Positions 30,148-47,137 of a DNA stretch of 64,000 nucleotides are shown piece by piece. Origin of the DNA: Candidatus Poribacteria bacterium (GTDB lineage: Bacteria > Poribacteria > WGA-4E > WGA-3G); the NCBI GenBank assembly GCA_022827625.1, contig JAJEIE010000022.1:88293-152292 (forward strand), given 5' to 3'. The notes beneath the pieces are model-generated. The model made no database searches, was not told the DNA's origin, and saw only the letters and a list, made by a program, of their open reading frames with translations. The translations under genes and the position numbers were made by a program. Each line of letters starts with the position of its first letter. Position 1 is the first letter of the stretch.

Positions 30148-31707
<1,560 letters not shown>

Positions 31708-31985: not shown

Positions 31986-32059
31986 GGGCTTATAGCTCAG
32001 ACGGTTAGAGCGCGCGCCTGATAAGCGCGAGGTCCCTGGTTCGATTCCAGGTAAGCCCA
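31986..32059 (+). tRNA. tRNA-Ile (anticodon GAT)
   Basis: The full cloverleaf is present: acceptor GGGCTTA/TAAGCCC, D-arm GCTC/GAGC, anticodon stem CGCGC/GCGCG around CTGATAA, T-arm CCTGG/CCAGG with TTCGATT. Discriminator A. The genome continues CCT, so the CCA end is not encoded. This tRNA normally sits in the 16S-23S spacer, but no 23S follows here. Confidence 0.97.
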
Positions 32060-32361: not shown

Positions 32362-32388
32362 GCATTTGGACGTGTTGAGGTATAATAG
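32362..32388 (+). pseudogene. 27-base relic of a B-type permease 3' end
   Basis: In frame with the next gene these bases read A-F-G-R-V-E-V-stop-stop, against A-F-V-R-V-E-V-stop at the end of the B-type genes. The same TAATAG then joins directly to the ATG of the first A-type gene, as at the junctions at 35.3, 38.4 and 41.3 kb. It keeps the GAGG that serves as ribosome-binding site. Confidence 0.75.
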
Positions 32389-33894
32389 ATGCTACTCACA
32401 CTCATCCGTCGAGAACTCCTCGATAACCTGATGACCTTCCGCTTCGCTGCAGCTGTCTTCATCACACTCTTGCTTGTGGTTGCCAATACCGTTGTGCTTC
32501 TCAAGGACTACGAACGACGCTTGGCAGCTTACAACACCGCACTCAAAACGCATCAGGATAAAGTGCGGGAACTGAAAGCCTATTCAGGTTATGAATTGAA
32601 CATAGATCGTCCCCCGAACCCACTGAGTATCTTCAATGCCGGACTCGATAAACGATTGGGAAATCAAGTGAGAGTTTACCACGCTTTTGTGCCGACGCTC
32701 TGGGATGCGAAGATGCACGGGTCGGATAATCCTTTTCTTAATATCTTCACCTCTATTGATATTATTTTTATTTTTGAGGTTATCCTCAGTCTGATAGCAC
32801 TGTTATTCGCCTACGATGCTCTTGCTGGTGAACGCGAGCAGGGAACGTTACGTCTCGTGCTGGCACAATCGGTGAGGCGTGGACACATCCTGCTTGCGAA
32901 ATACATTAGTGCGATGCTCTGTTTGCTTGTACCACTGCTATTGAGCCTGCTGCTCGCTATGATTTTGCTAACGAACAATCGCTCCGTATCCTTTTCACCT
33001 GATGATTTTCTTCGCATCGGTGGAATTGTTTTAACATCGCTGGCATACCTATCGGTATTCTACTTCATCGGCATGCTGATTTCTGAGGTATCTCGTAGAA
33101 CCAGCACTGCTCTTATGCTATCTATGTTCATCTGGGGATTTTTGGTATTGGTCTACCCGAACATGATCCTTGCTGTGATGTCGCCATCGCGCCCGCCACG
33201 GGCGCAGGTTGATTCTGCTATGAAGCAGATGGAACAGATATGGGAAGAATTTGACAGAGAACGGAAGGACTTTCTTATCAATGACCCGGTTCCAGGCGAG
33301 AGTATTTGGTTCAAGATAGGGGCAGTCGGAGGAAGTCACGAGTACCTCGCAAAACGAGCGTTAGCATTAGATGTTCACTTCAGGACTGGGCTTAATCTTG
33401 AGGAAATTAATGAGAGATCTGAACCGCAGGTACCGTATGCTCAGAATTATTTCCGCTTCCTTGAGCCCCGCGTTATCAGCACTGCAGAGAAAACGTGGCT
33501 GCTCCGAGAACAAGGACTTAAAAATATTTTTGTACAACCCGCAAGTATGGATAGAATCTTGTTGAAATTCTCACCCGTTGGAATCTATGATTCAGCGACA
33601 CAAGCCTGGGCAGGTACCGATCTACACGGTATCCGCGATTTCTTCGACGCGGCTCGCCAGCATCGACAGAGAGTGATTGACTATTTCTACGATACAAAAG
33701 TCTTCGGAACCCGACAATGGTTCGCCGGCGACAAGCAGACAGTCGATTGGAACGCGCTGCCGCAATTTAGTTTTAAAAGAAGCGATATCGGTATAAATAC
33801 AGAACGGGCGTTACCGGATGTATGCCTATTGCTGCTAATTAACGTTATCCTCTTCACAGTAATATTTCTGATTTTTGTCAAGAGTGAGGTATAG
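32389..33894 (+). CDS. ABC-2-type permease, array gene A1
   Basis: The 501-residue membrane protein is A-type member 1 of the array. Predicted layout: helix 1 at 19-38, outer loop 39-122, helix 2 at 123-143, the coupling motif GEREQGTLRLVLAQ near 148, helices at 173-195, 209-233 and 240-264, a large outer loop 265-474, and a final helix 477-497. ABC-2 permeases with such a large second loop (DUF3526-like) normally pair with a separate ATPase. The likely ribosome-binding site is the GAGG left by the upstream B relic. Its own GAGGTA codons end one base before the start of B1. Substrate unknown. Confidence 0.88.
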   Translation: MLLTLIRRELLDNLMTFRFAAAVFITLLLVVANTVVLLKDYERRLAAYNTALKTHQDKVRELKAYSGYELNIDRPPNPLSIFNAGLDKRLGNQVRVYHAFVPTLWDAKMHGSDNPFLNIFTSIDIIFIFEVILSLIALLFAYDALAGEREQGTLRLVLAQSVRRGHILLAKYISAMLCLLVPLLLSLLLAMILLTNNRSVSFSPDDFLRIGGIVLTSLAYLSVFYFIGMLISEVSRRTSTALMLSMFIWGFLVLVYPNMILAVMSPSRPPRAQVDSAMKQMEQIWEEFDRERKDFLINDPVPGESIWFKIGAVGGSHEYLAKRALALDVHFRTGLNLEEINERSEPQVPYAQNYFRFLEPRVISTAEKTWLLREQGLKNIFVQPASMDRILLKFSPVGIYDSATQAWAGTDLHGIRDFFDAARQHRQRVIDYFYDTKVFGTRQWFAGDKQTVDWNALPQFSFKRSDIGINTERALPDVCLLLLINVILFTVIFLIFVKSEV

Positions 33895-33895
33895 A

Positions 33896-35299
33896 ATGAT
33901 TTGGCATATCGCAAAACGCGAACTCTACGATAACCTCAATAATCTCCGATTCGTCCTTGCGATCATGTTGTTGATTGGATTAATGATTACCAATGCTATC
34001 GTGTATCTTCGTGAACACCCAACGCGAGTGCAGCAGTACCGCAGTTCTGCCACGGAATCTTTGGAAGTTTTAAAGGCTCGGACGGACCTGTACGACATTG
34101 CTCTGAATGGACCTGGAGACCTCTACAAACAGCCAGCATCTCTCAGATTCTGCGCAGACGGTGGTGAATCCTTTTTGTCGGAATTCGTGGATGGTGGGTA
34201 TTGGATGTGGGGTTACGGCGACGGTTTTAGAGACTTTTGGCTGCTGAATTATCCTACTTCTAACCCAAATCTCTTGAATATTCGTCCGGACGTTACCAAA
34301 GTCGATTGGGTTTTTATTTTCGGCTACGTTTTAAGTCTCCTTGCACTTCTATTTACCTTTGATTCAGTGTCGGGTGAGCGAGAGCGCGGCACGCTACGCC
34401 TCATGTTAGCAAATTCAATTCCACGCCACACCGTGTTGTTTGGGAAGTTTTTGGGGGCATTGATAAGTTTATGTATCCCCACGGTGATTGCAATCTTAAT
34501 CAACCTATTGGTGATTTCGACATCGAGTGCTGTCCACCTTAACAACGAAGCATGGAAACGTTTGGGAGTGATTATTGCCGTCGCACTCGTTTATATTTTT
34601 CTTTTTCTTGCGCTGGGGCTGCTTGTTTCCGCCCGGGTGCGAAGAAGCAGCGTCAGCCTCGTGATACTCCTGTTAACCTGGGTAATCTTTGTGGTTTTCG
34701 TGCCTGGCACTGTTGCTTCCATTACAAGCGGACTTTCATCACCTATATCTTCTGATGAACTTCGGAAACGACAAAATCAACTTCATAACGAAATCTTGGA
34801 GGCATATATAGATAGGACAGGAGGCGATGAAACACCGGAAAGAACGTTGGGGCGAAGCGAATACATCATGAAGCAGATGGAACAACAGGAACGCTTGCGC
34901 AGAGAGCACTTGGACCAACAAATTACCCAAGTCCAGCAGGCGCGTGCCGTCACTCGTGTCTCTCCAGCGGCAATTCTTCAGCACAGCCTTGAGGCGTTCG
35001 CTGGAACAGGTTTTGCACGGCATCTGCAATTCTTGGAAAATGTTCAACGTTACGCTCGCGAATATCGCGAATTCGTCGAAAATACGGACAGATCAGATCC
35101 TGAAAGTCTCCATCTGATTGGTGTTCCTGAAGGTATGTCTAAAAAACCTGTCAGTCCAGAGGCGATTCCGAAATTTGAAGATACACTTAGCCTCGGCAAG
35201 GATTTCAATACAGCCGCGATAGATTTATTGTTGCTAACGCTGTTTGTTATAGTTCTTCTATCTGCGGCGTATCTTGCGTTTGTGCGTGTAGAGGTATAA
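33896..35299 (+). CDS. ABC-2-type permease, array gene B1
   Basis: This 467-residue partner of A1 starts at ATG 33896 (MIWHIAKRELYDNL), two bases after the A1 stop; a seven-codon longer form would overlap A1 and has no site. Layout: helix 1 at about 20-38, outer loop 40-137, helix 2 at 138-157, coupling motif SGERERGTLRLMLANSIPRH, three more helices to about 270, outer loop 270-445, last helix to the end ...FVRVEV. Part of loop 1 (about 87-133) is unlike the other B genes. The terminal GAGGTATAATAG provides the Shine-Dalgarno site and direct junction to A2. Confidence 0.88.
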   Translation: MIWHIAKRELYDNLNNLRFVLAIMLLIGLMITNAIVYLREHPTRVQQYRSSATESLEVLKARTDLYDIALNGPGDLYKQPASLRFCADGGESFLSEFVDGGYWMWGYGDGFRDFWLLNYPTSNPNLLNIRPDVTKVDWVFIFGYVLSLLALLFTFDSVSGERERGTLRLMLANSIPRHTVLFGKFLGALISLCIPTVIAILINLLVISTSSAVHLNNEAWKRLGVIIAVALVYIFLFLALGLLVSARVRRSSVSLVILLLTWVIFVVFVPGTVASITSGLSSPISSDELRKRQNQLHNEILEAYIDRTGGDETPERTLGRSEYIMKQMEQQERLRREHLDQQITQVQQARAVTRVSPAAILQHSLEAFAGTGFARHLQFLENVQRYAREYREFVENTDRSDPESLHLIGVPEGMSKKPVSPEAIPKFEDTLSLGKDFNTAAIDLLLLTLFVIVLLSAAYLAFVRVEV

Positions 35300-35302
35300 T
35301 AG

Positions 35303-36808
35303 ATGCTACTCACACTTATTCGCCGAGAACTCCTTGATAACCTGATGACCTTCCGATTTGCAGCAGCCGTCTTGATTATGCTGTTGCTTGTGGTTGCAAA
35401 TACCGCTGTACTCATCAAGGATTATGAACGGCGATTGGCAGCTTACAATACTGCTCTCAAAACGCATCATCAGCAATTGTGGGAAAGAAAGACCTATTCG
35501 GGTGGAAAATTGGACATTGCCCGTCCTCCAAATCCTTTGAGTATCTTCAATGTAGGGTTAGATAAACAGTTGGAGAGCGAAACTTGGATATCTCATAGTT
35601 ATGTACCGACGCTGTGGGATGCTGACATGCTCGGAACAACAAACCCACTTCTTAACCTCTTCTCTTCGATCGATATTGTCTTCATCTTTGAGATAGTCCT
35701 GAGCCTAATAGCACTGATTTTCGCCTACGATGCCCTTGCGGGAGAACGCGAGCGCGGTACATTGCGTCTGGTTCTAACGCATTCGGTCAGTCGTGGTCAA
35801 ATCCTGCTTGCGAAATACATCAGTGCGATGATATGTCTACTGGTACCGCTGCTAATGAGTCTACTCCTTGCAATGATTTTGCTGATGACATCCGTCACTA
35901 TTTCTCTGAGTCTTGGTGATTTTCTCCGGATTGGTGGGATTATTTTTAGTTCAATTTCATATCTGTCGGTCTTCTACCTTATCGGCATGTTGATTTCAGC
36001 AGCAACCACCAGAACCGGCACTGCCCTGATGCTTGCTATGTTTGTCTGGGGATTCTCGGTGTTGGTATATCCGAATGTGGTGATTGCCGCGATTGCCCCT
36101 CCACAAACTTCGCAAGCAGGGATGGTCTCCACCTTCAATCAAATTAAACAAATATGGGAAGAACTCGATAGAGAACGAAAGCACTTCCTTGCGAATGATC
36201 CGGTTCCAGGGGAGGATCCGAGTTTTGGTATGGTACGGTCAGGTTTCGCCTATGAATACTTTTACGAAGATGCATCGGTTCTCTATTATCACTACGGTGC
36301 TGGCGCGCACGTTTTGGAGCTTAACGAAGAATCCGAACCTCAGGTGCCACATGCACAGGATTATTACCGCTTCCTCGTACCACGAAGCGTTGATGCCGCA
36401 GAGCGAACATGGCTTGTCCGAAAAACAGCACTTGATACTGTCTTTGTTCAGCCAGCGATAGTTGATCGAATCCTTTTGAGGTTTTCACCCGTTGGGATGT
36501 ACGACGCTGCAACGCAAGCGTGGGCAGGCACGGACCTGTCCGGACTCAGAGATTTTTTCGAGGCAGCACGAAAGTATCGACGGACTGTGATTGACTATTA
36601 CTACGATAAAAACGCATTCGGATCTCGGCAATGGTTTTCTGCAGACAAGGAGATGGTGGATTGGGACAATTTACCTCGGTTTTCTTTTCAGAAAAGCGAT
36701 GCGAGAATAAACGCAGAACGAGCGTTACCAGATTTACTCTTGTTACTAATAATGAACCTCTTGCTCTTTATAGTGATACTTCTGGTTTTCCAAAGAAGTG
36801 AAGTGTGA
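35303..36808 (+). CDS. ABC-2-type permease, array gene A2
   Basis: The 501-residue A-type paralogue has the same plan as A1. It opens MLLTLIRRELLDNLMTFRFA and carries SGERERGT-type coupling as AGERERGTLRLVLTHSVSRG. The hypervariable part lies between NDPVPGE and ESEPQVP, with its own Tyr-rich sequence. Its last codons are GAAGTG, without the GAGG seen at most junctions, and B2 is separated from it by a 146-base gap filled with an intergenic repeat. This is the only interrupted pair. Confidence 0.88.
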   Translation: MLLTLIRRELLDNLMTFRFAAAVLIMLLLVVANTAVLIKDYERRLAAYNTALKTHHQQLWERKTYSGGKLDIARPPNPLSIFNVGLDKQLESETWISHSYVPTLWDADMLGTTNPLLNLFSSIDIVFIFEIVLSLIALIFAYDALAGERERGTLRLVLTHSVSRGQILLAKYISAMICLLVPLLMSLLLAMILLMTSVTISLSLGDFLRIGGIIFSSISYLSVFYLIGMLISAATTRTGTALMLAMFVWGFSVLVYPNVVIAAIAPPQTSQAGMVSTFNQIKQIWEELDRERKHFLANDPVPGEDPSFGMVRSGFAYEYFYEDASVLYYHYGAGAHVLELNEESEPQVPHAQDYYRFLVPRSVDAAERTWLVRKTALDTVFVQPAIVDRILLRFSPVGMYDAATQAWAGTDLSGLRDFFEAARKYRRTVIDYYYDKNAFGSRQWFSADKEMVDWDNLPRFSFQKSDARINAERALPDLLLLLIMNLLLFIVILLVFQRSEV

Positions 36809-36810
36809 AA

Positions 36811-36953
36811 TGGCTGTTGGTACTTGGTTTTTGGTTAAGAGCGGTGCATAATGTTGAAAACCGTCACAACTGCTACAAGGCTTAACTTATAACTAAGAAC
36901 TTAGAACTTATAACCAAAAGTGAGCGTAGTAAACGTACCGATAACTGACAACT
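36811..36953. repeat. mosaic intergenic repeat, copy 6, inside the permease array
   Basis: This copy contains TTGGTTTTTGGTTAAGAGCG at the left and CTTATAACTAAGAACTTAGA followed by ACTTATAACCAAAAGTGAGC and TAACTGACAACT at the right. It separates A2 from B2, whereas the other four A-B pairs join directly, so it most likely inserted into a former A2-B2 junction. Confidence 0.75.
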
Positions 36954-36954
36954 C

Positions 36955-38355
36955 ATGTGGCATATTGCAAAACGCGAACTCTACGACAATCTCAATAGCC
37001 TCCGATTTGCTTTGGCAACAGTGTTGCTTTTCGGCTTGATGCTGACCAATGCTGTTGTCCATCTCCGAGAGCATCCAGTGCGGGTACAGAAATATCATGA
37101 TGCTATCACAGAATCGCTGAACCGCTTAAGGGCTCGGACAGATTTATATGAAATTGCGCAATGGGGTCCCGAATTGCTTCACAAAAAACCATCTCCGCTT
37201 CATTTCTGTACAGATGGGGGTGACATCGTTTTACCGGGTACTATTTACCAATCTGTCTCTCGGATTACGAATGACTTGTATACCTTTTGGTATCTGTCAT
37301 ATCGGTACCGGACCCCCAATTCAAAAAATATTCGTCCGGCCACTATCAAAGTAGATTGGGAATTTGTGATTGGGTACGTTTTGAGCCTCATCGCAATCTT
37401 GTTCACCTTTGATTCGATTTCCGGTGAACGCGAGCGCGGCACACTGCGTTTGATGTTAGCGAACTCTATCCCACGCCATACTGTGCTGCTTGGCAAGTTT
37501 TTAGGCGCATTGATAAGTATCAGTGCCCCGCTCACGCTTGCAGTGTTAATGAACCTATTGATAATTTCTGTGTCCAACAATGTCCAACTCGATGCTGAGG
37601 CGTGGAGGCGTTTAGGCATTGTTTTCTTTGTTGCAGTCCTGTATCTGTGCCTGTTTCTTGCATTAGGTTTGTTAGTGTCGTCGCGTGTGCAGCAAAATGC
37701 GACAAGCCTTGTGATACTCCTATTGATATGGGTCTCCTTCGTGGTTTTTATACCGAGCACACTTGCCTCTATCGCAAGTGGATTTTCAAATCCGATGACT
37801 TATGATGAATACAGAGAACGCCATGATCGCCTTTATAGTGAACTCGGGGATGAATACAATGCTCGTTTGCAAGGCACGCGTGAACTACCAACTGAAAGAA
37901 TGCAGTTGACAGGGGAGTATGTTACCAAGGGTGCTGCACGGGGAGAACGTTTGAGTCATGAACGCTTAAACCAGGAACATGCTCAAATCCAACTGGCGCG
38001 TTCTGTTACCCGCATTTCGCCCGTTGCAATTGTCCAGCACCTTATTGAAGCGTTTGCCGGAACGGGGTTTGAACGGCACCGACAATTCGTGGAGAACGTG
38101 CAGGACTACGCCCGCGAATACCGAGAATTCGTCGGGGATATGGATAGAGCAGATCCCGACAGTCCTCACACCATCGGGGTTCGCGAGGGGATGTCCAAGA
38201 AACCTGTCAACCCAGAGGCGGTTCCGAAATTTGAGGATAGGCTGAGCCTCAGCAGAGATTTCAACACTGCGGCAGTGGACTTACTACTATTGGTTCTATT
38301 TTTCGTTGTCTTTTTCTCAGGTGCGTATCTCGCGTTTGTGCGTGTAGAGGTATAA
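36955..38355 (+). CDS. ABC-2-type permease, array gene B2
   Basis: The 466-residue B-type paralogue begins MWHIAKRELYDNLNSLRFAL. The ATG follows directly after the repeat insertion, with no visible Shine-Dalgarno site, so expression may be weaker or depend on a promoter in the repeat. The coupling segment SGERERGTLRLMLANSIPRH is intact. Loop 1 between FCTDGGD and RPATIKVDW is distinct from B1 and B3. The end ...FVRVEV with GAGGTATAATAG joins A3. The frame is intact, so it is not a pseudogene. Confidence 0.87.
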   Translation: MWHIAKRELYDNLNSLRFALATVLLFGLMLTNAVVHLREHPVRVQKYHDAITESLNRLRARTDLYEIAQWGPELLHKKPSPLHFCTDGGDIVLPGTIYQSVSRITNDLYTFWYLSYRYRTPNSKNIRPATIKVDWEFVIGYVLSLIAILFTFDSISGERERGTLRLMLANSIPRHTVLLGKFLGALISISAPLTLAVLMNLLIISVSNNVQLDAEAWRRLGIVFFVAVLYLCLFLALGLLVSSRVQQNATSLVILLLIWVSFVVFIPSTLASIASGFSNPMTYDEYRERHDRLYSELGDEYNARLQGTRELPTERMQLTGEYVTKGAARGERLSHERLNQEHAQIQLARSVTRISPVAIVQHLIEAFAGTGFERHRQFVENVQDYAREYREFVGDMDRADPDSPHTIGVREGMSKKPVNPEAVPKFEDRLSLSRDFNTAAVDLLLLVLFFVVFFSGAYLAFVRVEV

Positions 38356-38358
38356 TAG

Positions 38359-39864
38359 ATGCTACTTACACTCATCCGTCGAGAACTTCTCGACAATTTG
38401 ATGACCTTTCGATTTGCAGCAGCCATCCTGATTATGCTGCTGCTCGTCGTCGCAAATACCGCTGTGCTCATCAAGGACTACGAGCGACGGTTGGAGGCTT
38501 ACAACACTGCCGTCCAAAAGCATCGGCAGGACTTGCTGGAAACAAAAACCTATTCAGCGGTCGGCTTAACCGCTTATCGCCCGCCGAATCCGTTGAGTAT
38601 CTTTAATGTCGGTTTGGACAAACGGTTAGGAAACACACTCAGGGTCTCTTATCTTTATGTGCCGACCCTATGGGATGCTTGGAAACACGGGGCGAATAAC
38701 GCATACCTCAATATCTTCGCTTCTATTGATATTGTTTTTATTTTTCAAGGGATTCTCAGCCTACTGGCACTCGTCTTTGCCTACGATGCACTTGCGGGGG
38801 AGCGCGAGCGTGGCACGCTACGACTCGTTTTGACGCACCCTGTCCGACGCGGTCATATCCTATTTGCCAAATATATTAGCGCGATGCTATGCCTGCTGAT
38901 ACCTTTACTGATGTGTTTCCTCCTCGTATTGATTATGCTAACGACTTCTGCTTCTGTTTTTCTGGGCACCGATGATTTTTTTCGCATCGGTGGGGTCATC
39001 TTTACGTCGTTTGTCTATTTATCGCTGTTTTATCTCATCGGTATGCTGATTTCAGCAGCGACACGCCGAACGGGGACCGCCCTCATGCTCGCCATGTTCG
39101 CCTGGGGGTTCTTGGTCTTAGTGTATCCGAATATGATTCTTACCGCGATTGAAACCGATCCGCACACGGACACAGAAACCTCCGTTTACAATCAAATCAA
39201 GCAGATATGGGAAGAATTTGACAGAGAACGCAAGCAGTTTCTCGCCAATGACCCTGTGCCAGGTGAAGATTGGGATTTTGGTTTGTGGGGTGATGATGGC
39301 TACACTTTTTGGGGTGGCACTGACGACTCATCGAAATTATTATATTACGAGAGCACTGGGTTCCATTTTGAAACACTCAAAGAGGAATCTGAACCGCAGG
39401 TACCGCACGCTCAAAATTACCACCGCTTTTTCGGTCTACAGGTTACCAACACTGCAGACCGAACCTGGATCGTCCGAAAGCCTGCACTGGAGATGATCTA
39501 TGTCCAACCCGCAAAAAAGGAACAGATGCTGTTGAAGTTCTCACCCGTAGGTCTCTATGATTCGGCGACTGAAGCGTGGACAGGGACCGATTTAAGCGGT
39601 CTCCAAGATTTTTTTATGGCAGGTCAACGCTACCAACAAGCAGTGGTTGACTATTTTCTTGACAATAAGATATTTGAGTCTCGACAATGGTTTGTTGCCG
39701 CCAAAGGGGAGATCGACTGGAACATGCTGCCTCAGTTCTCCTTTCAGAGAAGCGATATCGGCACAAACGCAAAACGAGCGTTACCAGATTTATTTTTACT
39801 GTTGATACTTAACCTCATCCTGTTTGCAATCATATTCCTGATTTTTGTTAAAAGCGAAGTGTAA
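38359..39864 (+). CDS. ABC-2-type permease, array gene A3
   Basis: The 501-residue A-type paralogue is closest to A2 in its first 45 residues. Coupling motif AGERERGTLRLVLTHPVRRG. The hypervariable loop after NDPVPGE is rich in Gly, Trp and Asp (DWDFGLWGDDGYTFWGGTDD) before EESEPQVPHAQNYHRF. Constant blocks downstream are LLKFSPVGLYDSATEAW and SRQWFV. It ends ...FVKSEV with GAAGTGTAAA directly before the B3 start, a weaker version of the usual GAGG junction. Confidence 0.88.
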   Translation: MLLTLIRRELLDNLMTFRFAAAILIMLLLVVANTAVLIKDYERRLEAYNTAVQKHRQDLLETKTYSAVGLTAYRPPNPLSIFNVGLDKRLGNTLRVSYLYVPTLWDAWKHGANNAYLNIFASIDIVFIFQGILSLLALVFAYDALAGERERGTLRLVLTHPVRRGHILFAKYISAMLCLLIPLLMCFLLVLIMLTTSASVFLGTDDFFRIGGVIFTSFVYLSLFYLIGMLISAATRRTGTALMLAMFAWGFLVLVYPNMILTAIETDPHTDTETSVYNQIKQIWEEFDRERKQFLANDPVPGEDWDFGLWGDDGYTFWGGTDDSSKLLYYESTGFHFETLKEESEPQVPHAQNYHRFFGLQVTNTADRTWIVRKPALEMIYVQPAKKEQMLLKFSPVGLYDSATEAWTGTDLSGLQDFFMAGQRYQQAVVDYFLDNKIFESRQWFVAAKGEIDWNMLPQFSFQRSDIGTNAKRALPDLFLLLILNLILFAIIFLIFVKSEV

Positions 39865-39865
39865 A

Positions 39866-41275
39866 ATGATTTGGCATATTACAAGACGCGAACTTTACGA
39901 TAACCTTAATAGTCTCCGATTCGCACTAACAACCATGTTGCTGTTAGCACTGATGTTAACCAACGCTATCGGACATCTCCGCGAACATCCCAAACGGATG
40001 CAGAAGTATAACGACGCTGTCAGCGAATCTATGACGCGCATGGCTTCTCACACCGATGACAGTTTGTATAAACTCGCACAAGAGGGCCCCGGGAAACTCT
40101 ATAAAAAGCCGTCATCTCTCTATTTCTGTGCAGCGGGTGGAGACCCCGTTCTACCAGACACTATTGAAGGGGGGAGTCCTTTTGGGTATTCCGAACATCT
40201 AAGAGGCGTCTGGAAACTGAAATATCCGGATGCTAACATAAACATGAAGCGCGTTGGACCCGACGTTACCAAACTGGACTGGGCATTTGTTATCGGTTAT
40301 GTCTTGAGCCTGATTGCCCTTTTGTTCACTTTCGATGCGATCTCCGGTGAACGCGAGCGCGGCACACTCCGATTGATGTTTGCCAATTCAGTACCACGGC
40401 ACATCGTCCTTATCGGTAAGTTTTTAGGGGCATTGATAAGTGTGAGTATTCCCTTTACACTTGCGGTGTTGATAAACCTCTTACTAATTTCTACATCAAA
40501 TGCTGTTCACCTCAATACTGAGGCGTGGGGACGCTTAGGTATCATCTTTCTTATCGCGCTCCTGTACATGTGTCTATTTCTGGCGTTAGGACTGTTAGTA
40601 TCCGCGCGCGCGCAACGGAGTGCGGTCAGTCTCGTGATACTCCTGTTAATATGGATTACCGTTGTTGTTTTTATGCCGAGTACCCTCGCTTCAATTGCGA
40701 GTGAATTTTCACCACCAATGTCTTCCGAGCCATTCTGGAAACGCCGTAACCAAATTCAAGAGGAACTCTGGCAGAAGTACAGCAGATGGGTCTGGTCAGG
40801 TAAAGTGGATAAAGAAACGTTGACAGGAAAGAGTGAATTCTTCATCCAAGACGCAGAAGCGGAAGAACGTTTAAACCAAGAACGCTTAACCGAAAAGGTT
40901 GCACAGGTTCAACACGCGCGCGCTATCACTCGCATCTCACCCGCTACGCTTCTCCAACATCTCCTTGAATCGTTTGCTGGCACCGGATTTGAACGGCATT
41001 TGCAATTTGTCGAGAACACGCACCGTTACGCCCGACAATTTCGTGAATTTGTGGCTGACACGGACAGATCGGATCCGGAGAGTTTACATATTATTGGTGT
41101 TCGCGAGGGTATGACGAAGAAAAAGATCCTGCCGGAGGCTGTTCCAAAATTTGAAGACACGCTTAGTCTGAGCAAGGACTTCAATACAAGGGCGACAGAG
41201 TTGTTGCTATTGGTGTTGTTTGTTATGGTGCTTCTGTCCGGATCGTATCTTGCATTTGTGCGCGTTGAGGTATAA
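39866..41275 (+). CDS. ABC-2-type permease, array gene B3
   Basis: The 469-residue B-type paralogue starts at ATG 39866... the codon lies two bases after the A3 stop (MIWHITRRELYDNL). Coupling segment SGERERGTLRLMFANSVPRH. Loop 1 between FCAAGGD and GPDVTKLDW is variable. The large outer loop contains an E/K-rich helix (KSEFFIQDAEAEERLNQERL) and the constant block FAGTGFERHLQFVENTHRYA. It ends ...FVRVEV, GAGGTATAATAG, joining A4. Confidence 0.88.
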   Translation: MIWHITRRELYDNLNSLRFALTTMLLLALMLTNAIGHLREHPKRMQKYNDAVSESMTRMASHTDDSLYKLAQEGPGKLYKKPSSLYFCAAGGDPVLPDTIEGGSPFGYSEHLRGVWKLKYPDANINMKRVGPDVTKLDWAFVIGYVLSLIALLFTFDAISGERERGTLRLMFANSVPRHIVLIGKFLGALISVSIPFTLAVLINLLLISTSNAVHLNTEAWGRLGIIFLIALLYMCLFLALGLLVSARAQRSAVSLVILLLIWITVVVFMPSTLASIASEFSPPMSSEPFWKRRNQIQEELWQKYSRWVWSGKVDKETLTGKSEFFIQDAEAEERLNQERLTEKVAQVQHARAITRISPATLLQHLLESFAGTGFERHLQFVENTHRYARQFREFVADTDRSDPESLHIIGVREGMTKKKILPEAVPKFEDTLSLSKDFNTRATELLLLVLFVMVLLSGSYLAFVRVEV

Positions 41276-41278
41276 TAG

Positions 41279-42805
41279 ATGCTACTCACACTTATCCGTC
41301 GAGAACTCCTTGACAACCTAATGACCTTTCGCTTTGCGGCAGCTGTTTTCATTACCCTATTGCTTGTGGTCGCCAATACCGTTGTGCTCCTTAAGGACTA
41401 TGAACAGCGACTCACCGCTTACAACACGGCTACTCAGGAAAGTTACCAGAGATTACGTGAAGAAAAAACTTATTCCTATTATATTGGAAAGTTAGTTGCC
41501 CATCGTCCTCCGAACCCGTTGAGTATTTTCAATCTGGGATTGGATAAGCAGGTGGGTAACAAAATTAACGTATACCACGGGTTTGTGCCAACAATTTGGG
41601 ATGCAGAGAAGCACAGGTCGGATAACCCGTTTCTCAACCTCTTCACTTCAATTGACATCGCGCTTGTTTTTCAGGGGATACTAAGTCTCCTCGCCTTGAT
41701 TTTCGCCTACGATGCACTGGCTGGCGAACGTGAACGCGGTACATTACGCCTCGTGCTGACACACCCAATCCGGCGCGGATACATCCTATTTGCCAAGTAT
41801 ATCAGCGCGATGCTCTGCCTACTTGTGCCGTTGCTGATAAGCCTTCTCCTGTCTATTGTCTTGCTGACGACCTCTACTACAATTTTCCTGAGCACTAATG
41901 ATTTCCTTCGCCTCGGTGGGATTGTCCTGACATCACTGCTTTATGTATCGCTGTTCTACCTCATCGGTATGTGGATCTCCGCGATGACGCGTCGAACCAG
42001 CACCGCGCTTATGCTTTGCATGTTCGTCTGGGGATTCTTAGTACTCGTGTATCCAAACTTGATCCTTACCGCAGTTGAAATCACGCCACAACCCGATACG
42101 CAAGCATCTGCCTACAATCAAATCAAACAGATGTGGGAAGAATTTGATAGAGAAAACAAGCAGCTTCTCCGCAATGATCCCGTCTTAGGTCCCCTATCGC
42201 GTGACGGCGAAGGTTGGGGATTTTACGTGGAAGGCGGTGAATATACCTTCGGGATGAGTGAAGACAAACCGTCAATATTGCTCTATTTCTTCCAAACCGG
42301 CTTCTACGCTGGAAAAATTGGAGCAGAATCCGAACCACAGGTGCCGCGCTTACAAAATTATTACCGCTTTTACAACAGAGAAACCGTCAATACCGTCCAA
42401 CGGACGTGGCTTGTCCGAGAACCAGCACTTGAGGCTATCTACATCCACCCTGCAAATCTTGGTCGTACCCTACTAAAATTCTCACCGGCCGGGTTGTATG
42501 ACGCGGCAACGGAAGCTTGGGCAGGCACCAATTTAGAGGATATCCAAGACTTTTTCAACGCGGTTCAACGTTACCGACGTGCAGTCCTTGACTATTTCGA
42601 TGACGAAAAGATATTTGAATCGCGACAATGGTTTGCTGCTGACCACGGCACAGCTGACTGGGACGCACTCCCTCAATTTTCCTTTCAGAGGAGTGGTGTA
42701 GACGTAAATGCAAAGCGAGCGTTACCAGATTTATTCCTACTGCTGATGACTAACCTCATCCTCTTCACAGTAATATTTCTGATTTTTGTCAGGAGTGAGG
42801 TGTAG
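41279..42805 (+). CDS. ABC-2-type permease, array gene A4
   Basis: The 508-residue A-type paralogue is the longest. Its first 42 residues are identical to those of A1, although the outer loops differ strongly, which suggests sequence exchange between members. Coupling motif AGERERGTLRLVLTHPIRRG. The hypervariable segment begins NDPVLGPLSRDGEGWGFYVE and is seven or more residues longer than in A1. It ends ...FVRSEV with GAGGTGTAGA, then ATG of B4. Confidence 0.88.
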   Translation: MLLTLIRRELLDNLMTFRFAAAVFITLLLVVANTVVLLKDYEQRLTAYNTATQESYQRLREEKTYSYYIGKLVAHRPPNPLSIFNLGLDKQVGNKINVYHGFVPTIWDAEKHRSDNPFLNLFTSIDIALVFQGILSLLALIFAYDALAGERERGTLRLVLTHPIRRGYILFAKYISAMLCLLVPLLISLLLSIVLLTTSTTIFLSTNDFLRLGGIVLTSLLYVSLFYLIGMWISAMTRRTSTALMLCMFVWGFLVLVYPNLILTAVEITPQPDTQASAYNQIKQMWEEFDRENKQLLRNDPVLGPLSRDGEGWGFYVEGGEYTFGMSEDKPSILLYFFQTGFYAGKIGAESEPQVPRLQNYYRFYNRETVNTVQRTWLVREPALEAIYIHPANLGRTLLKFSPAGLYDAATEAWAGTNLEDIQDFFNAVQRYRRAVLDYFDDEKIFESRQWFAADHGTADWDALPQFSFQRSGVDVNAKRALPDLFLLLMTNLILFTVIFLIFVRSEV

Positions 42806-42806
42806 A

Positions 42807-44234
42807 ATGGTTTGGCATATTACCAAGCGTGAAATCTACGATAATCTCAACAGCCTCCGATTCGCGCTAACAACCGTGTTATTGCTGGCACTAATGGTAA
42901 CCAATGCCGTTAGACATCTCCGAGAGCATCCAAAGCGGGTGCAGCGATATCAGGATGCCGTTACCGAATCTTTGAATCGCTTAACGGCTCATGCCGATGA
43001 AAACCTCTATAAACTGGCACAATACGGACCGGGAAACTTCTACAAAAAGCCGTCTCCCCTTCACTTCTGTGCAAACGGCGGTGAACCCCTTTTACCAGAT
43101 ATGGTCGAAGTGGAGGAACCCAATGTGTTCGCGACCGATTCAGAAGATAACATCCTACTCCAAGGTGTTTGGAGCTTGTCCTATCCAGATGCCAACCTCC
43201 AGAATAAGAGCGTTGGCCCGGACGTTTCACAAGTGGATTGGATATTTATCATCGGTTATGTCTTGAGTTTACTGGCACTCTTGTTTACCTTTGATACCTT
43301 CTCCGGTGAACGCGAGCGCGGCACACTCCGATTGATGTTGGCGAATTCAGTACCTCGACACACTGTCCTTATCGGCAAGTTCTTAGGAGGGTTGCTCAGT
43401 ATTAGCATCCCGTTTACACTTGCTGTGTTAGTGAACCTTTTATTGATTTCCACCTCAAGTGATGTTCACCTGACCACGGAAGCATGGGGACGTTTAGGTA
43501 TCATTTTCTGTCTCGCGCTTTTGTACACGAGTCTGTTTCTGGCGTTAGGCCTGTTAGTCTCCACGCGTGTGCAACGAAGTGCCGTAAGTCTGATGCTATT
43601 GCTTTTGACGTGGGTAACCTTTGTCGTTTTTATGCCCAGCACTCTCGCTTCAATTGCGAGCAGTTTCTCGCCTACCAAATCCTTTGATGAATTTTGGAAA
43701 CAGCGTAACCCGGTTCAAGAGGACTTATGGGATAAATACCGCGAGTGGCTCTGGTCGGATGAATTGGACGATGAAACGTTAAGGGGGAAAAGCGATTTTT
43801 ATACCGAACATGTTGAAAGATCCGAACGTTGGCGCGAAGGACAATTGAAATACCGAAGCTCTCAGATGCACCGCGCCCGTGCCATCACCAGCATCTCACC
43901 CGCCACACTTCTGCAGCACCTGATTGAATCGTTTGCTGGAACCGGATTTGAGCGGCATTTGCAATTTGTGGGGAACACACAACATTACGCTCGCCAACTC
44001 CGTGAATTCATCGTTGATACCGATAGAGGGGACCCCGAAAGCCTCCATATCATAAACGTTCGTGAAGGCATGTCGCAGAAGCCTGTCAGCCCAGCAGCAG
44101 TTCCGAAATTTGAAGATACATTCGATCTTAATGAAGACTTCAATACCAGAGCGATGGAGTTGCTGTTATTGACGCTGTTCGTTGTCGTTTTGTTGGCGGG
44201 TGCGTATCTTGCGTTTGTGCGCGTTGAGGTGTGA
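42807..44234 (+). CDS. ABC-2-type permease, array gene B4
   Basis: The 475-residue B-type paralogue begins MVWHITKREIYDNLNSLRFA, with its ATG just after the A4 stop. It has the longest variable part of loop 1 among the B genes (between FCANGGE and GPDVSQVDW). Coupling segment SGERERGTLRLMLANSVPRH. The constant block FAGTGFERHLQFVGNTQHYA lies in the large loop. It ends ...FVRVEV (GAGGTGTGA); the link to A5 is longer (TGATTCAAAATG) than at earlier B-A junctions. Confidence 0.88.
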   Translation: MVWHITKREIYDNLNSLRFALTTVLLLALMVTNAVRHLREHPKRVQRYQDAVTESLNRLTAHADENLYKLAQYGPGNFYKKPSPLHFCANGGEPLLPDMVEVEEPNVFATDSEDNILLQGVWSLSYPDANLQNKSVGPDVSQVDWIFIIGYVLSLLALLFTFDTFSGERERGTLRLMLANSVPRHTVLIGKFLGGLLSISIPFTLAVLVNLLLISTSSDVHLTTEAWGRLGIIFCLALLYTSLFLALGLLVSTRVQRSAVSLMLLLLTWVTFVVFMPSTLASIASSFSPTKSFDEFWKQRNPVQEDLWDKYREWLWSDELDDETLRGKSDFYTEHVERSERWREGQLKYRSSQMHRARAITSISPATLLQHLIESFAGTGFERHLQFVGNTQHYARQLREFIVDTDRGDPESLHIINVREGMSQKPVSPAAVPKFEDTFDLNEDFNTRAMELLLLTLFVVVLLAGAYLAFVRVEV

Positions 44235-44240
44235 TTCAAA

Positions 44241-45734
44241 ATGCTTAAAACACTCATTCGCAGGGAACTGCTTGACAATCTAATGACGTTTCGCTTCGCA
44301 GCCGTCCTGCTCATCACACTGTTGCTTGTTGTTGCCAATACAGCGGTACTTATCCAAGATTATGAGCAACGTTTGGAGAGTTACAACGATGCCGTCAAAA
44401 TGCATCAGCAGGATTTGCGTAATTCCAAGACCTATTCTACTGCGCACCTGTTCGTTGACCGGGCACCAAATCCGTTGAGCATTTTTAATGTCGGGTTAGA
44501 TAAACGTTTGGGCAACCTCATCGGTATCTATCACGGGTTTATGCCGACACTCTGGGATGCCCAGATGCACGGCACTGACAACCCGTTTATCGCTTTCTTC
44601 TCTTCAATCGATATTGTTTTTGTCTTTGAGGTTATCCTCAGTCTAATGGGATTAATATTCGCTTACGACGCGATTGCGGGGGAACGTGAACGCGGTACGT
44701 TACGCCTCGTTCTCGCACAGCCTATCGGACGCGGGCAGATCTTACTTGCGAAATATATCAGTGCAATGGCGTGTCTGTTGGTCCCGCTGATATTGAGCCT
44801 ACTTTTTGCCTTACTGTTGCTAACGCGTTCGATGCCGTTATCAACTGCTGATTTTCTCCGAATCGCCGGGATTGTGCTTACATCGTTCGCGTATCTGTCG
44901 CTGTTTTATCTCATTGGGCTGTTGATTTCCGTGGCGACGCGTAGGACTGGTACGGCACTAATGCTCGCTATGTTCATCTGGGGGCTTCTGATACTCGTGT
45001 ATCCAAACTTGATTCGGGCAACGGTTAATCCTGGCGGCGACATCCAAGCGCGTGTGAAGACTGCGCATAACCAGATTCAACAGATTTTAGATGAATATGA
45101 AAGAGAACGTCAAAAGTTCCTTGAAAAAGAGGGAATCGCTGAAGAGATGTCGGAATTCAGCAAGGCGTTGGGGTTTTATCACCAGGCGGATGTGGATCCA
45201 GTAACCCTGACGACTTATATTGAAAGTATAAGTGTTCTTTCAGAGATCCGTCCGGACTTCGAGAAGTACATCCCCGTCGCTAAGCGGTATTACAATTTCG
45301 TTGAACCGTTGGCGACCCGAACGGTAGAAAAAGCGTGGCGTATCCGTAAGCAGGCACTTGATGAAATTTACGTTAAACAAGCCACAACGGATAGGATATT
45401 GTTGAAACTCTCACCCGTAGGCATTTATGATGCTGCGACGCAAGCGTGGGCAGGCACGGATCTTTCGGGACTCAGAGATTTTTTTGATGCATCGCGACGT
45501 TACCGGAAAATCATAATTGACTATCTCTATGCCAAGGACGCATTCGCCTCACGAGAATGGTTTGTCGCTGATAAAGGTACTGTAGACTGGCGTACACTCC
45601 CGCAGTTCACTTTTCAGAGAAGTGATGTTGGAATAAATGCAAAACGGGCATTGCCAGATTTATTTCTACTGCTCCTGATTAACCTAATCTTTTTCACAAT
45701 CATATTTCTGATTTTCGTCAGGAGTGAAGTGTAG
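44241..45734 (+). CDS. ABC-2-type permease, array gene A5
   Basis: This 497-residue member is the most diverged A-type gene. It begins MLKTLIRRELLDNLMTFRFA. Coupling motif AGERERGTLRLVLAQPIGRG. The large outer loop lacks the ESEPQVP block and instead carries an acidic helical segment (EKEGIAEEMSEFSKALGFYH) before RYYNFVEPLATRTVEKAWRI. Later blocks (LLKLSPVGIYDAATQAWAGT) return to the common pattern. Ends ...FVRSEV; GAAGTGTAGAA precedes the B5 ATG, with AGGAG slightly further upstream. Confidence 0.88.
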   Translation: MLKTLIRRELLDNLMTFRFAAVLLITLLLVVANTAVLIQDYEQRLESYNDAVKMHQQDLRNSKTYSTAHLFVDRAPNPLSIFNVGLDKRLGNLIGIYHGFMPTLWDAQMHGTDNPFIAFFSSIDIVFVFEVILSLMGLIFAYDAIAGERERGTLRLVLAQPIGRGQILLAKYISAMACLLVPLILSLLFALLLLTRSMPLSTADFLRIAGIVLTSFAYLSLFYLIGLLISVATRRTGTALMLAMFIWGLLILVYPNLIRATVNPGGDIQARVKTAHNQIQQILDEYERERQKFLEKEGIAEEMSEFSKALGFYHQADVDPVTLTTYIESISVLSEIRPDFEKYIPVAKRYYNFVEPLATRTVEKAWRIRKQALDEIYVKQATTDRILLKLSPVGIYDAATQAWAGTDLSGLRDFFDASRRYRKIIIDYLYAKDAFASREWFVADKGTVDWRTLPQFTFQRSDVGINAKRALPDLFLLLLINLIFFTIIFLIFVRSEV

Positions 45735-45736
45735 AA

Positions 45737-47137
45737 ATGTGGCATATCGCAAAACGTGAACTCTACGACAACCTGAATAGCCTTCGTTTTGCATTGGCAA
45801 CAGTGCTCCTGTTGGCATTGATGCTGACCAATACGGTCTTGTATCTGCGCGAACACCCGAAACGAATACAAGCATATCACAACGCCGCTTCTGGTGCTGT
45901 AAAGACCTTAGAAGGGCGCAGTACGAGTCTATATCGCCTCGCGACAGAGGGGCCTGGCGATCTTCACAAAGCCCCTTCACTGCTCCGTTTCTGTGCTGAA
46001 GGCGATGAGGCGTTTCTACCAACGCACGCCAGTGGCGCGAACTTCGTTCGCAGGATCGCTGATAGGACACCCATCTGGCGGATGGGATACCCACAAGAGA
46101 CACCAAATCTCCGCAATATCCGTCCTGATTTCGCCACTCTGGATTGGGCGTTTATTGTTGGTTATGTGCTGAGTTTTATCGCGATCTTGTTCACTTTTGA
46201 CGCTATCTCTGGCGAACTGGAGCGCGGGACGTTGCGGTTGACATTGGCAAACGCTATTCCACGGCACACTGTGCTGATGGGGAAGTTTTTGGGAGTATTC
46301 ATCAGTATCAACATCCCTTTCACGATTGTGGTGTTGATGAATTTGATCCTAATTTCTACCTCAGATGCAGTGCAACTCAACCCCGAAGCGTGGGGACGTT
46401 TAGGCATCTTGTACAGCGTTATTATCCTCTATATCTGTCTGTTTATCGCTTTAGGACTTCTCATATCTGCTGCAGTTCGAGAGAGTGGTGTGAGTCTTGT
46501 CGTGTTGTTGTTAATCTGGGTAAGTTTTGTGGTGTTTATGCCGAATACACTGGCATCTATCGGTAGTCGAACGTTGGTACCGATAGCGTACGAGGAATTT
46601 TGGACCCAGCGCATTCGGCTTGCAGATGCGGCGCGTGCGGCATACCGAGATAAATATGGAGATTCACAAATTACGCCGTCAGTGCATGTACTTGGGGAGT
46701 ACGTCACCACAGAAGCAGAAGAACATGAACGCTACAATGCGTCATATTTGAAACAGCAGATTGAACAGGGAAAACGGGCGCGTGCGATAACCCGCATCTC
46801 GCCAGCAGCGATTGTCCAACGCCTCTTTGAATCTTTTGCAGGGACGGGGTTTGAACGGCATCTGCAATTTATTGAGAACGCGCAGCGTTACACCCGTGAA
46901 TACCGCGAGTTCGTTGTTGATACGGATAGGGCGGATCCGGAGAGTCTTCACCTTATCGGAATTCAAGAAGGCATGTCACAGAAACCTGTCAATCCAGAGG
47001 CGATACCCAAATTTAAAGACACGCTCAGTCTCAGCCGCGATTTTGATGCAGTCGCGACGGATTTACTGCTGTTGGTGCTGTTTCTTGGGGTGCTTGTCTC
47101 TGGTGCGTATCTCGCGTTTGTGCGGCTTGAGATTTAA
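45737..47137 (+). CDS. ABC-2-type permease, array gene B5
   Basis: This is the 466-residue last member of the array. It begins MWHIAKRELYDNLNSLRFAL, like B2. The coupling segment reads SGELERGTLRLTLANAIPRH, with GEL in place of the GER found in all other nine. Variable loop 1 lies between FCAEGDE and RPDFATLDW. The C-terminus is ...FVRLEI (GAGATT), so both the -EV end and the embedded GAGG are lost exactly where no further gene follows. It converges on the aminotransferase gene 11 bases away. Confidence 0.88.
   Translation: MWHIAKRELYDNLNSLRFALATVLLLALMLTNTVLYLREHPKRIQAYHNAASGAVKTLEGRSTSLYRLATEGPGDLHKAPSLLRFCAEGDEAFLPTHASGANFVRRIADRTPIWRMGYPQETPNLRNIRPDFATLDWAFIVGYVLSFIAILFTFDAISGELERGTLRLTLANAIPRHTVLMGKFLGVFISINIPFTIVVLMNLILISTSDAVQLNPEAWGRLGILYSVIILYICLFIALGLLISAAVRESGVSLVVLLLIWVSFVVFMPNTLASIGSRTLVPIAYEEFWTQRIRLADAARAAYRDKYGDSQITPSVHVLGEYVTTEAEEHERYNASYLKQQIEQGKRARAITRISPAAIVQRLFESFAGTGFERHLQFIENAQRYTREYREFVVDTDRADPESLHLIGIQEGMSQKPVNPEAIPKFKDTLSLSRDFDAVATDLLLLVLFLGVLVSGAYLAFVRLEI

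Follow-up and report, generated by a model that had tools for sequence, protein, structure and literature searches.

A tandem array of paired ABC-2-type permeases in Candidatus Poribacteria that probably shares one remotely encoded ATPase

Ten permease genes at positions 32389–47137 of a 64,000-nucleotide stretch of Candidatus Poribacteria DNA (hereafter the window, meaning the whole stretch) probably encode five interchangeable heterodimeric ABC-2-type modules, each made of an A and a B permease, which would share a single ATPase, P0001, encoded elsewhere in the genome. That one remote ATPase serves many permeases, one of two possibilities raised in the initial annotation of this DNA, is well supported, by inference, from the matching phyletic distribution of ATPase and permeases, from their linkage in relatives and from the conservation of the segment through which ABC-2 permeases are predicted to couple to their ATPase. 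Beyond the array, comparative genomics indicates that nearly all related permeases in this genome are likely to run off P0001.

The array consists of ten consecutive forward-strand open reading frames in which A and B permeases alternate, as had been described initially; its end at 47137 was retained, but the first start codon lies at 32389 instead of 32362. In order, the A permeases comprise 501 (32389–33894), 501 (35303–36808), 501 (38359–39864), 508 (41279–42805) and 497 residues (44241–45734), in agreement with the earlier range of 497–508. By longest open reading frame, the B permeases have 474 (33875–35299), 466 (36955–38355), 476 (39845–41275), 482 (42786–44234) and 466 residues (45737–47137) and thus exceed the 466–475 residues claimed before; B1 would have 466 residues if started at 33899. 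Within a pair, the B start lies −20 to +146 bases from the A stop, so the two genes overlap or follow each other closely. Profile searches against the ABC-2 and DUF3526 families, which had been proposed as a check, matched all ten proteins to ABC2_membrane_2 (PF12679) above the cut-off, with E values from 1e-26 to 1e-34 (A1 to A5: 5e-28, 8e-27, 2e-26, 3e-30 and 2e-28; B1 to B5: 1e-34, 7e-33, 1e-30, 2e-31 and 6e-30). The C-terminal half matched DUF3526 (PF12040) above the cut-off in nine of the ten (A1, A2, A4 and A5: 6e-7, 5e-7, 5e-6 and 1e-5; B1 to B5: 4e-10, 3e-9, 3e-10, 2e-7 and 1e-8), A3 giving a weak match (E 0.034), and no ATPase domain was detected inside any of the ten at E<=0.1. Hydropathy indicates six transmembrane segments in A and likewise six in B, one of them split. 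The coupling motif GERE.GTLRL, previously attributed to all ten proteins, is present in nine, whereas B5 carries GELERGTLRL.

Neither in nor beside the array did we find an ATPase of the PF00005 family, and the window's only match is SufC, located at about 8.2 kb, the presence of which had been noted before. A 16S rRNA gene (30148–31699) and tRNA-Ile (31986–32059) lie directly upstream, and ilvE-like, hisF-like and murJ genes, the first two named from sequence, follow downstream on the opposite strand. No 23S rRNA gene was found in the window, so 16S and 23S seem to be unlinked, and an open reading frame antisense to 16S suggests the same placement of the 16S gene in genomes G028 (L054) and G010 (L046). 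A tandem-repeat search revealed no DNA-level repeats, and promoter and terminator scans returned matches in chance numbers only. A role in anti-phage defence was considered and rejected: PADLOC gave no match for the permeases or the NEW3-domain protein described below, and its matches for the ATPase were generic ABC/AAA hits.

A genome-wide search for an orphan ABC-2-type ATPase, as had been recommended, yielded 67 matches to PF00005 (ABC_tran), among which only the one at C31:38072 shares a neighbourhood with permease pairs. It corresponds to P0001, a 244-residue ATPase on another contig (C31:38021–38752), which has permease pairs on both flanks; the genes next after it encode a NEW3-domain protein (PF10633) and then an outer membrane efflux protein (OEP; PF02321, E 2e-34). 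P0001 stands alone in its family within the genome (522 bits compared with 138 bits, at 38% identity, for the next protein), and its orthologs are 91–99% identical within the genus and usually occur once per genome, although a few genomes carry two copies and the ATPase is thus not always single. Another ABC ATPase is found about 6 kb from a single permease on C30, but judged by the start of its sequence it appears to be a long sugar-importer-like protein.

Among 85 Poribacteria genomes, P0001 and DUF3526 permeases occur together in 56 and are both missing from 27; two genomes, metagenome-assembled and 81% and 83% complete, contain permeases only, and none contains P0001 only. One genome scored as having neither at the thresholds used, G046, retains traces of the two: its ATPase is broken, and it gives a single weak match to DUF3526. 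Within a single genus (g20), eleven genomes possess both and seven possess neither. On a tree of a marker protein, all seven independent contrasts, for which reading frames were checked by the Walker A motif, agreed between P0001 and permeases (p 0.016), whereas a control orphan ATPase on the same tree gave about 1 agreeing and 1.6 disagreeing contrasts. In the 20 genomes tested for it, the copy number of the NEW3 gene equalled that of P0001, and NEW3 was absent where P0001 was absent.

These distributions also bear on the possibility that the array draws on several different ATPases, for instance on other orphan ABC-2-like ones. At least three further ATPases of this kind without an obvious adjacent permease are encoded in the genome (C16:44924–45892, C3:4023 and C31:176417), which speaks for this explanation. 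However, the first is present in 83 and the last in 66 of the 85 genomes irrespective of the permeases, including genomes without any, and these two orphans do not track the permeases. The ATPase at C31:176417 is moreover missing from the permease-bearing genomes G066, G036, G039, G047 and G053, and none of the loci read showed linkage between these permeases and any of the orphans. We therefore regard service by several ATPases as unlikely. Still less probable, in our judgement, is that the permeases need no ATPase at all and act as sensors in the envelope or as structural proteins. Most permease loci indeed lack both an ATPase domain and an ATPase neighbour, but near-complete genomes never hold the permeases without P0001, and few parts of the proteins are as constrained as the ATPase-coupling segment. 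Mean pairwise identity reaches 0.81 in the coupling region compared with 0.64 overall, and falls to 0.24–0.35 in parts of the distal periplasmic loop. Between orthologs, dN in the coupling region of A is near 0–0.06; the regional contrast in B is weak. The motif recurs across all three types, A, B and the single, S-type permeases.

The number of potential clients is large. Altogether 21 DUF3526 and 29 PF12679 matches were found in the genome, from which we count about 26 permeases of the array kind at 12 loci, leaving out two Gld/Nos-like permeases and one weak match. The array contributes ten, and the remainder consists of pairs on C16 (157 kb), C36 and C4, two pairs on C31, and six ABC-2 permeases of the S type, which occur singly (C31:27k, C29:85k, C33:170k, C25:22k, C37:126k and C30:469k in the array's genome, G000). 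Thus, one P0001 is accompanied by many permease sets encoded apart from it; for the array itself, no ATPase is adjacent, and co-occurrence and linkage in relatives point to P0001. Some genomes contain up to about 50 DUF3526 matches. No DUF3526 match was obtained at E<=0.001 in the three of the six S-type permeases that were scanned, and DUF3526 counts miss S-type and some A-type proteins, so that permease-to-ATPase ratios derived from them are lower bounds.

In the named relatives, which are Candidatus Poribacteria and mostly sponge-associated, the ATPase resides in a recurrent operon. Of 54 named loci, 50 have NEW3 after the ATPase, and 45 have NEW3 and then the outer membrane efflux protein; several of the remaining loci stop at contig ends. 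In seven loci of sister genera (L118, L119, L125, L126, L128, L129 and L145), an array-type A/B pair immediately precedes the ATPase in the same orientation, and these pairs are 60–70% identical to those of the window. An S-type gene directly precedes the ATPase in five others (L101, L116, L120, L124 and L143), and an Acidobacteria bin (L142) groups two permeases with NEW3 and an ATPase of 56% identity. A matching ATPase beside each pair in relatives had been named as an observation that would refute the initial reading. Such neighbours do exist in some sister genera, but in each case it is the same ATPase, present once, and this strengthens the case for sharing. The simplest history would start from an ancestral operon that combined permeases with ATPase, NEW3 and OEP; its permeases would have multiplied and dispersed while the other components stayed nearly single. 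We also observed an ECF sigma factor fused to Peptidase M61 domains (L013:11264–13663, reverse strand), relatives of which occur in many genomes, often beside permeases, and which possibly represent a regulatory system linked to them.

Pairing of A with B, which the initial annotation had considered plausible, is supported by co-inheritance. For 51 full pairs, the distance matrices of A and B correlate with r=0.93, whereas 2000 within-genome re-pairings gave r of at most 0.44; A and B co-evolve as units, as expected if they form heterodimers. In several arrays, one pair has its A and B genes separated by an inserted open reading frame of 119–130 residues (MQDFKKLQVWQKSHDLTLRMYEL...; L044:12471, L047:8491, L165:6729, L169:8624 and L174:6916), the product of which we take to resemble 23S intervening-sequence/four-helix-bundle proteins.

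The five consecutive copies in this draft genome had originally been read as active amplification, and would also be expected from a duplication introduced during assembly. Both explanations were rejected as extremely improbable, being contradicted by the divergence of the copies and by arrays in single-contig chromosomes. The pairs are 58–71% identical to each other (61–65% for A and 58–62% for B relative to the first copy), with dN of 0.2–0.36 and dS from about 1.4 to saturation between paralogs. The nearest relative belongs to another genome for all 51 A permeases and for 49 of the 51 B permeases, and orthologs show dN/dS of 0.08–0.18, indicating strong purifying selection. Counting pairs in relatives, as had been advised, revealed arrays of 2–6 pairs in 16 genomes read, and in six genomes (this one, G010, G021, G026, G028 and G035) the array occupies the same ilvE/hisF locus. 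Since tandem arrays of 3–6 pairs are present in single-contig assemblies (six pairs in G028, OY282374.1; three in G010, OX639992.1; four in G005, OX639973.1; three in G021, OX638316.1), the array cannot be put down to faulty assembly. Given the old divergence, the nearest relatives in other genomes and the purifying selection, the array is an old, maintained repertoire in which whole pairs are gained and lost, without current amplification.

How such a system could work is suggested by hydropathy and by an AlphaFold model of A3 (pLDDT 89.1), from which each permease is predicted to have six transmembrane helices and two large periplasmic domains. The A and B subunits of one pair would form a heterodimer, and a P0001 homodimer could dock on the cytoplasmic GERExGTLRL segment of A, B and S types, enabling it to bind any A-B dimer. 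NEW3 and the TolC-like OEP may provide a shared periplasmic and outer-membrane conduit, and different pairs, which diverge most in the distal periplasmic loop, may confer different substrates or partners. The NEW3 protein has an N-terminal helix and coiled-coil hairpin, a string of beta-sandwiches and a C-terminal transmembrane segment; in the predicted structure, which is of mediocre quality (pLDDT 71, pTM 0.33), the helical hairpin spans residues 71–152 next to beta-sandwich domains. The operon thus includes a channel of the TolC family, but no membrane fusion adaptor was recognised. The hairpin had no match to a membrane-fusion-protein/HlyD family in Pfam, and Foldseek returned only generic Ig-like sandwiches for the model, so the tripartite conduit is put forward as a hypothesis. 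The assignment of NEW3 as a canonical membrane fusion protein was dropped, as Pfam gave no support and Foldseek was uninformative.

The complex would either be a tripartite exporter or transmit mechanical force within the envelope, a mode of action known in NosDFY and MacB. In the latter case, the shared ATPase would move the periplasmic domains of A and B against NEW3 and TolC, with no substrate crossing the inner membrane. Mechanotransmission is a variant of the shared-ATPase reading and compatible with it, since only the work done differs, and although we consider it the less probable mode, it is a serious alternative. It is favoured by NosY being the closest solved fold, and by the model of A3, which combines a NosY-like core with long periplasmic helices, one of 50 residues (342–392) and one extending from the first transmembrane segment (17–61). 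By sequence, however, it is indistinguishable from export, and no dedicated NosD-like partner was seen.

NosY works with the ATPase NosF, and it has this ATPase adjoining and a single permease gene rather than many pairs. The NosFY(D) system (PDB 7o0y and others) shares the PF12679 core with the array permeases and is their best Foldseek and sequence match, and P0001 resembles NosF, but NosY has only 276 residues and lacks the two large periplasmic domains. Separate-subunit tripartite ABC exporters are represented by VarACDEF of Vibrio cholerae (PMC5595328), of which VarD and VarE resemble MacB, and by YbhFSR of E. coli (PMC8277102). Like the system proposed here, they combine an ATPase, two membrane subunits, a periplasmic protein and a TolC-like channel; unlike it, they have their own pair per ATPase, and their periplasmic part is a membrane fusion protein, to which NEW3 has no detectable match. 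One separately encoded ATPase serving several membrane complexes has been described for importers, with MsiK (PMC4890002) and MsmK (PMC4519317) each shared by several of them and MceG energising Mce1 and Mce4 (PMC9947336), but these have few clients, compared with about 26 ABC-2-type, exporter-like permeases here. In group II ECF transporters, exchangeable membrane subunits likewise compete for one energising module, with eight S-components in L. delbrueckii (PMC7755397); those systems import vitamins, have S-components unrelated to ABC-2 permeases and lack an envelope-spanning part. By analogy, the array system looks like an exporter version of the shared-ATPase importers on a larger scale. 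Our search of the open-access literature, with most subscription journals outside its scope, returned no account of many ABC-2 exporter-type pairs being served by one ATPase and no papers on DUF3526.

With somewhat less confidence than the sharing of P0001 itself, we favour the broader interpretation of a phylum-wide modular exporter, in which one ATPase-NEW3-TolC chassis would operate dozens of dispersed and tandem exchangeable ABC-2 pairs, with periplasmic domains diversified for substrates in sponge symbionts, as an export counterpart of group II ECF transporters. ABC exporters are usually regarded as fixed complexes with their own ATPase. One motor shared by 26 or more permeases would, if true, be the largest shared-ATPase set and the first of the ABC-2 exporter type to our knowledge. 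It would open to experiment the question of how a single ATPase tells its many membrane partners apart or is distributed over them, and would offer a handle on what Poribacteria, sponge symbionts that are uncultivated, deliver to their host or perceive from it.
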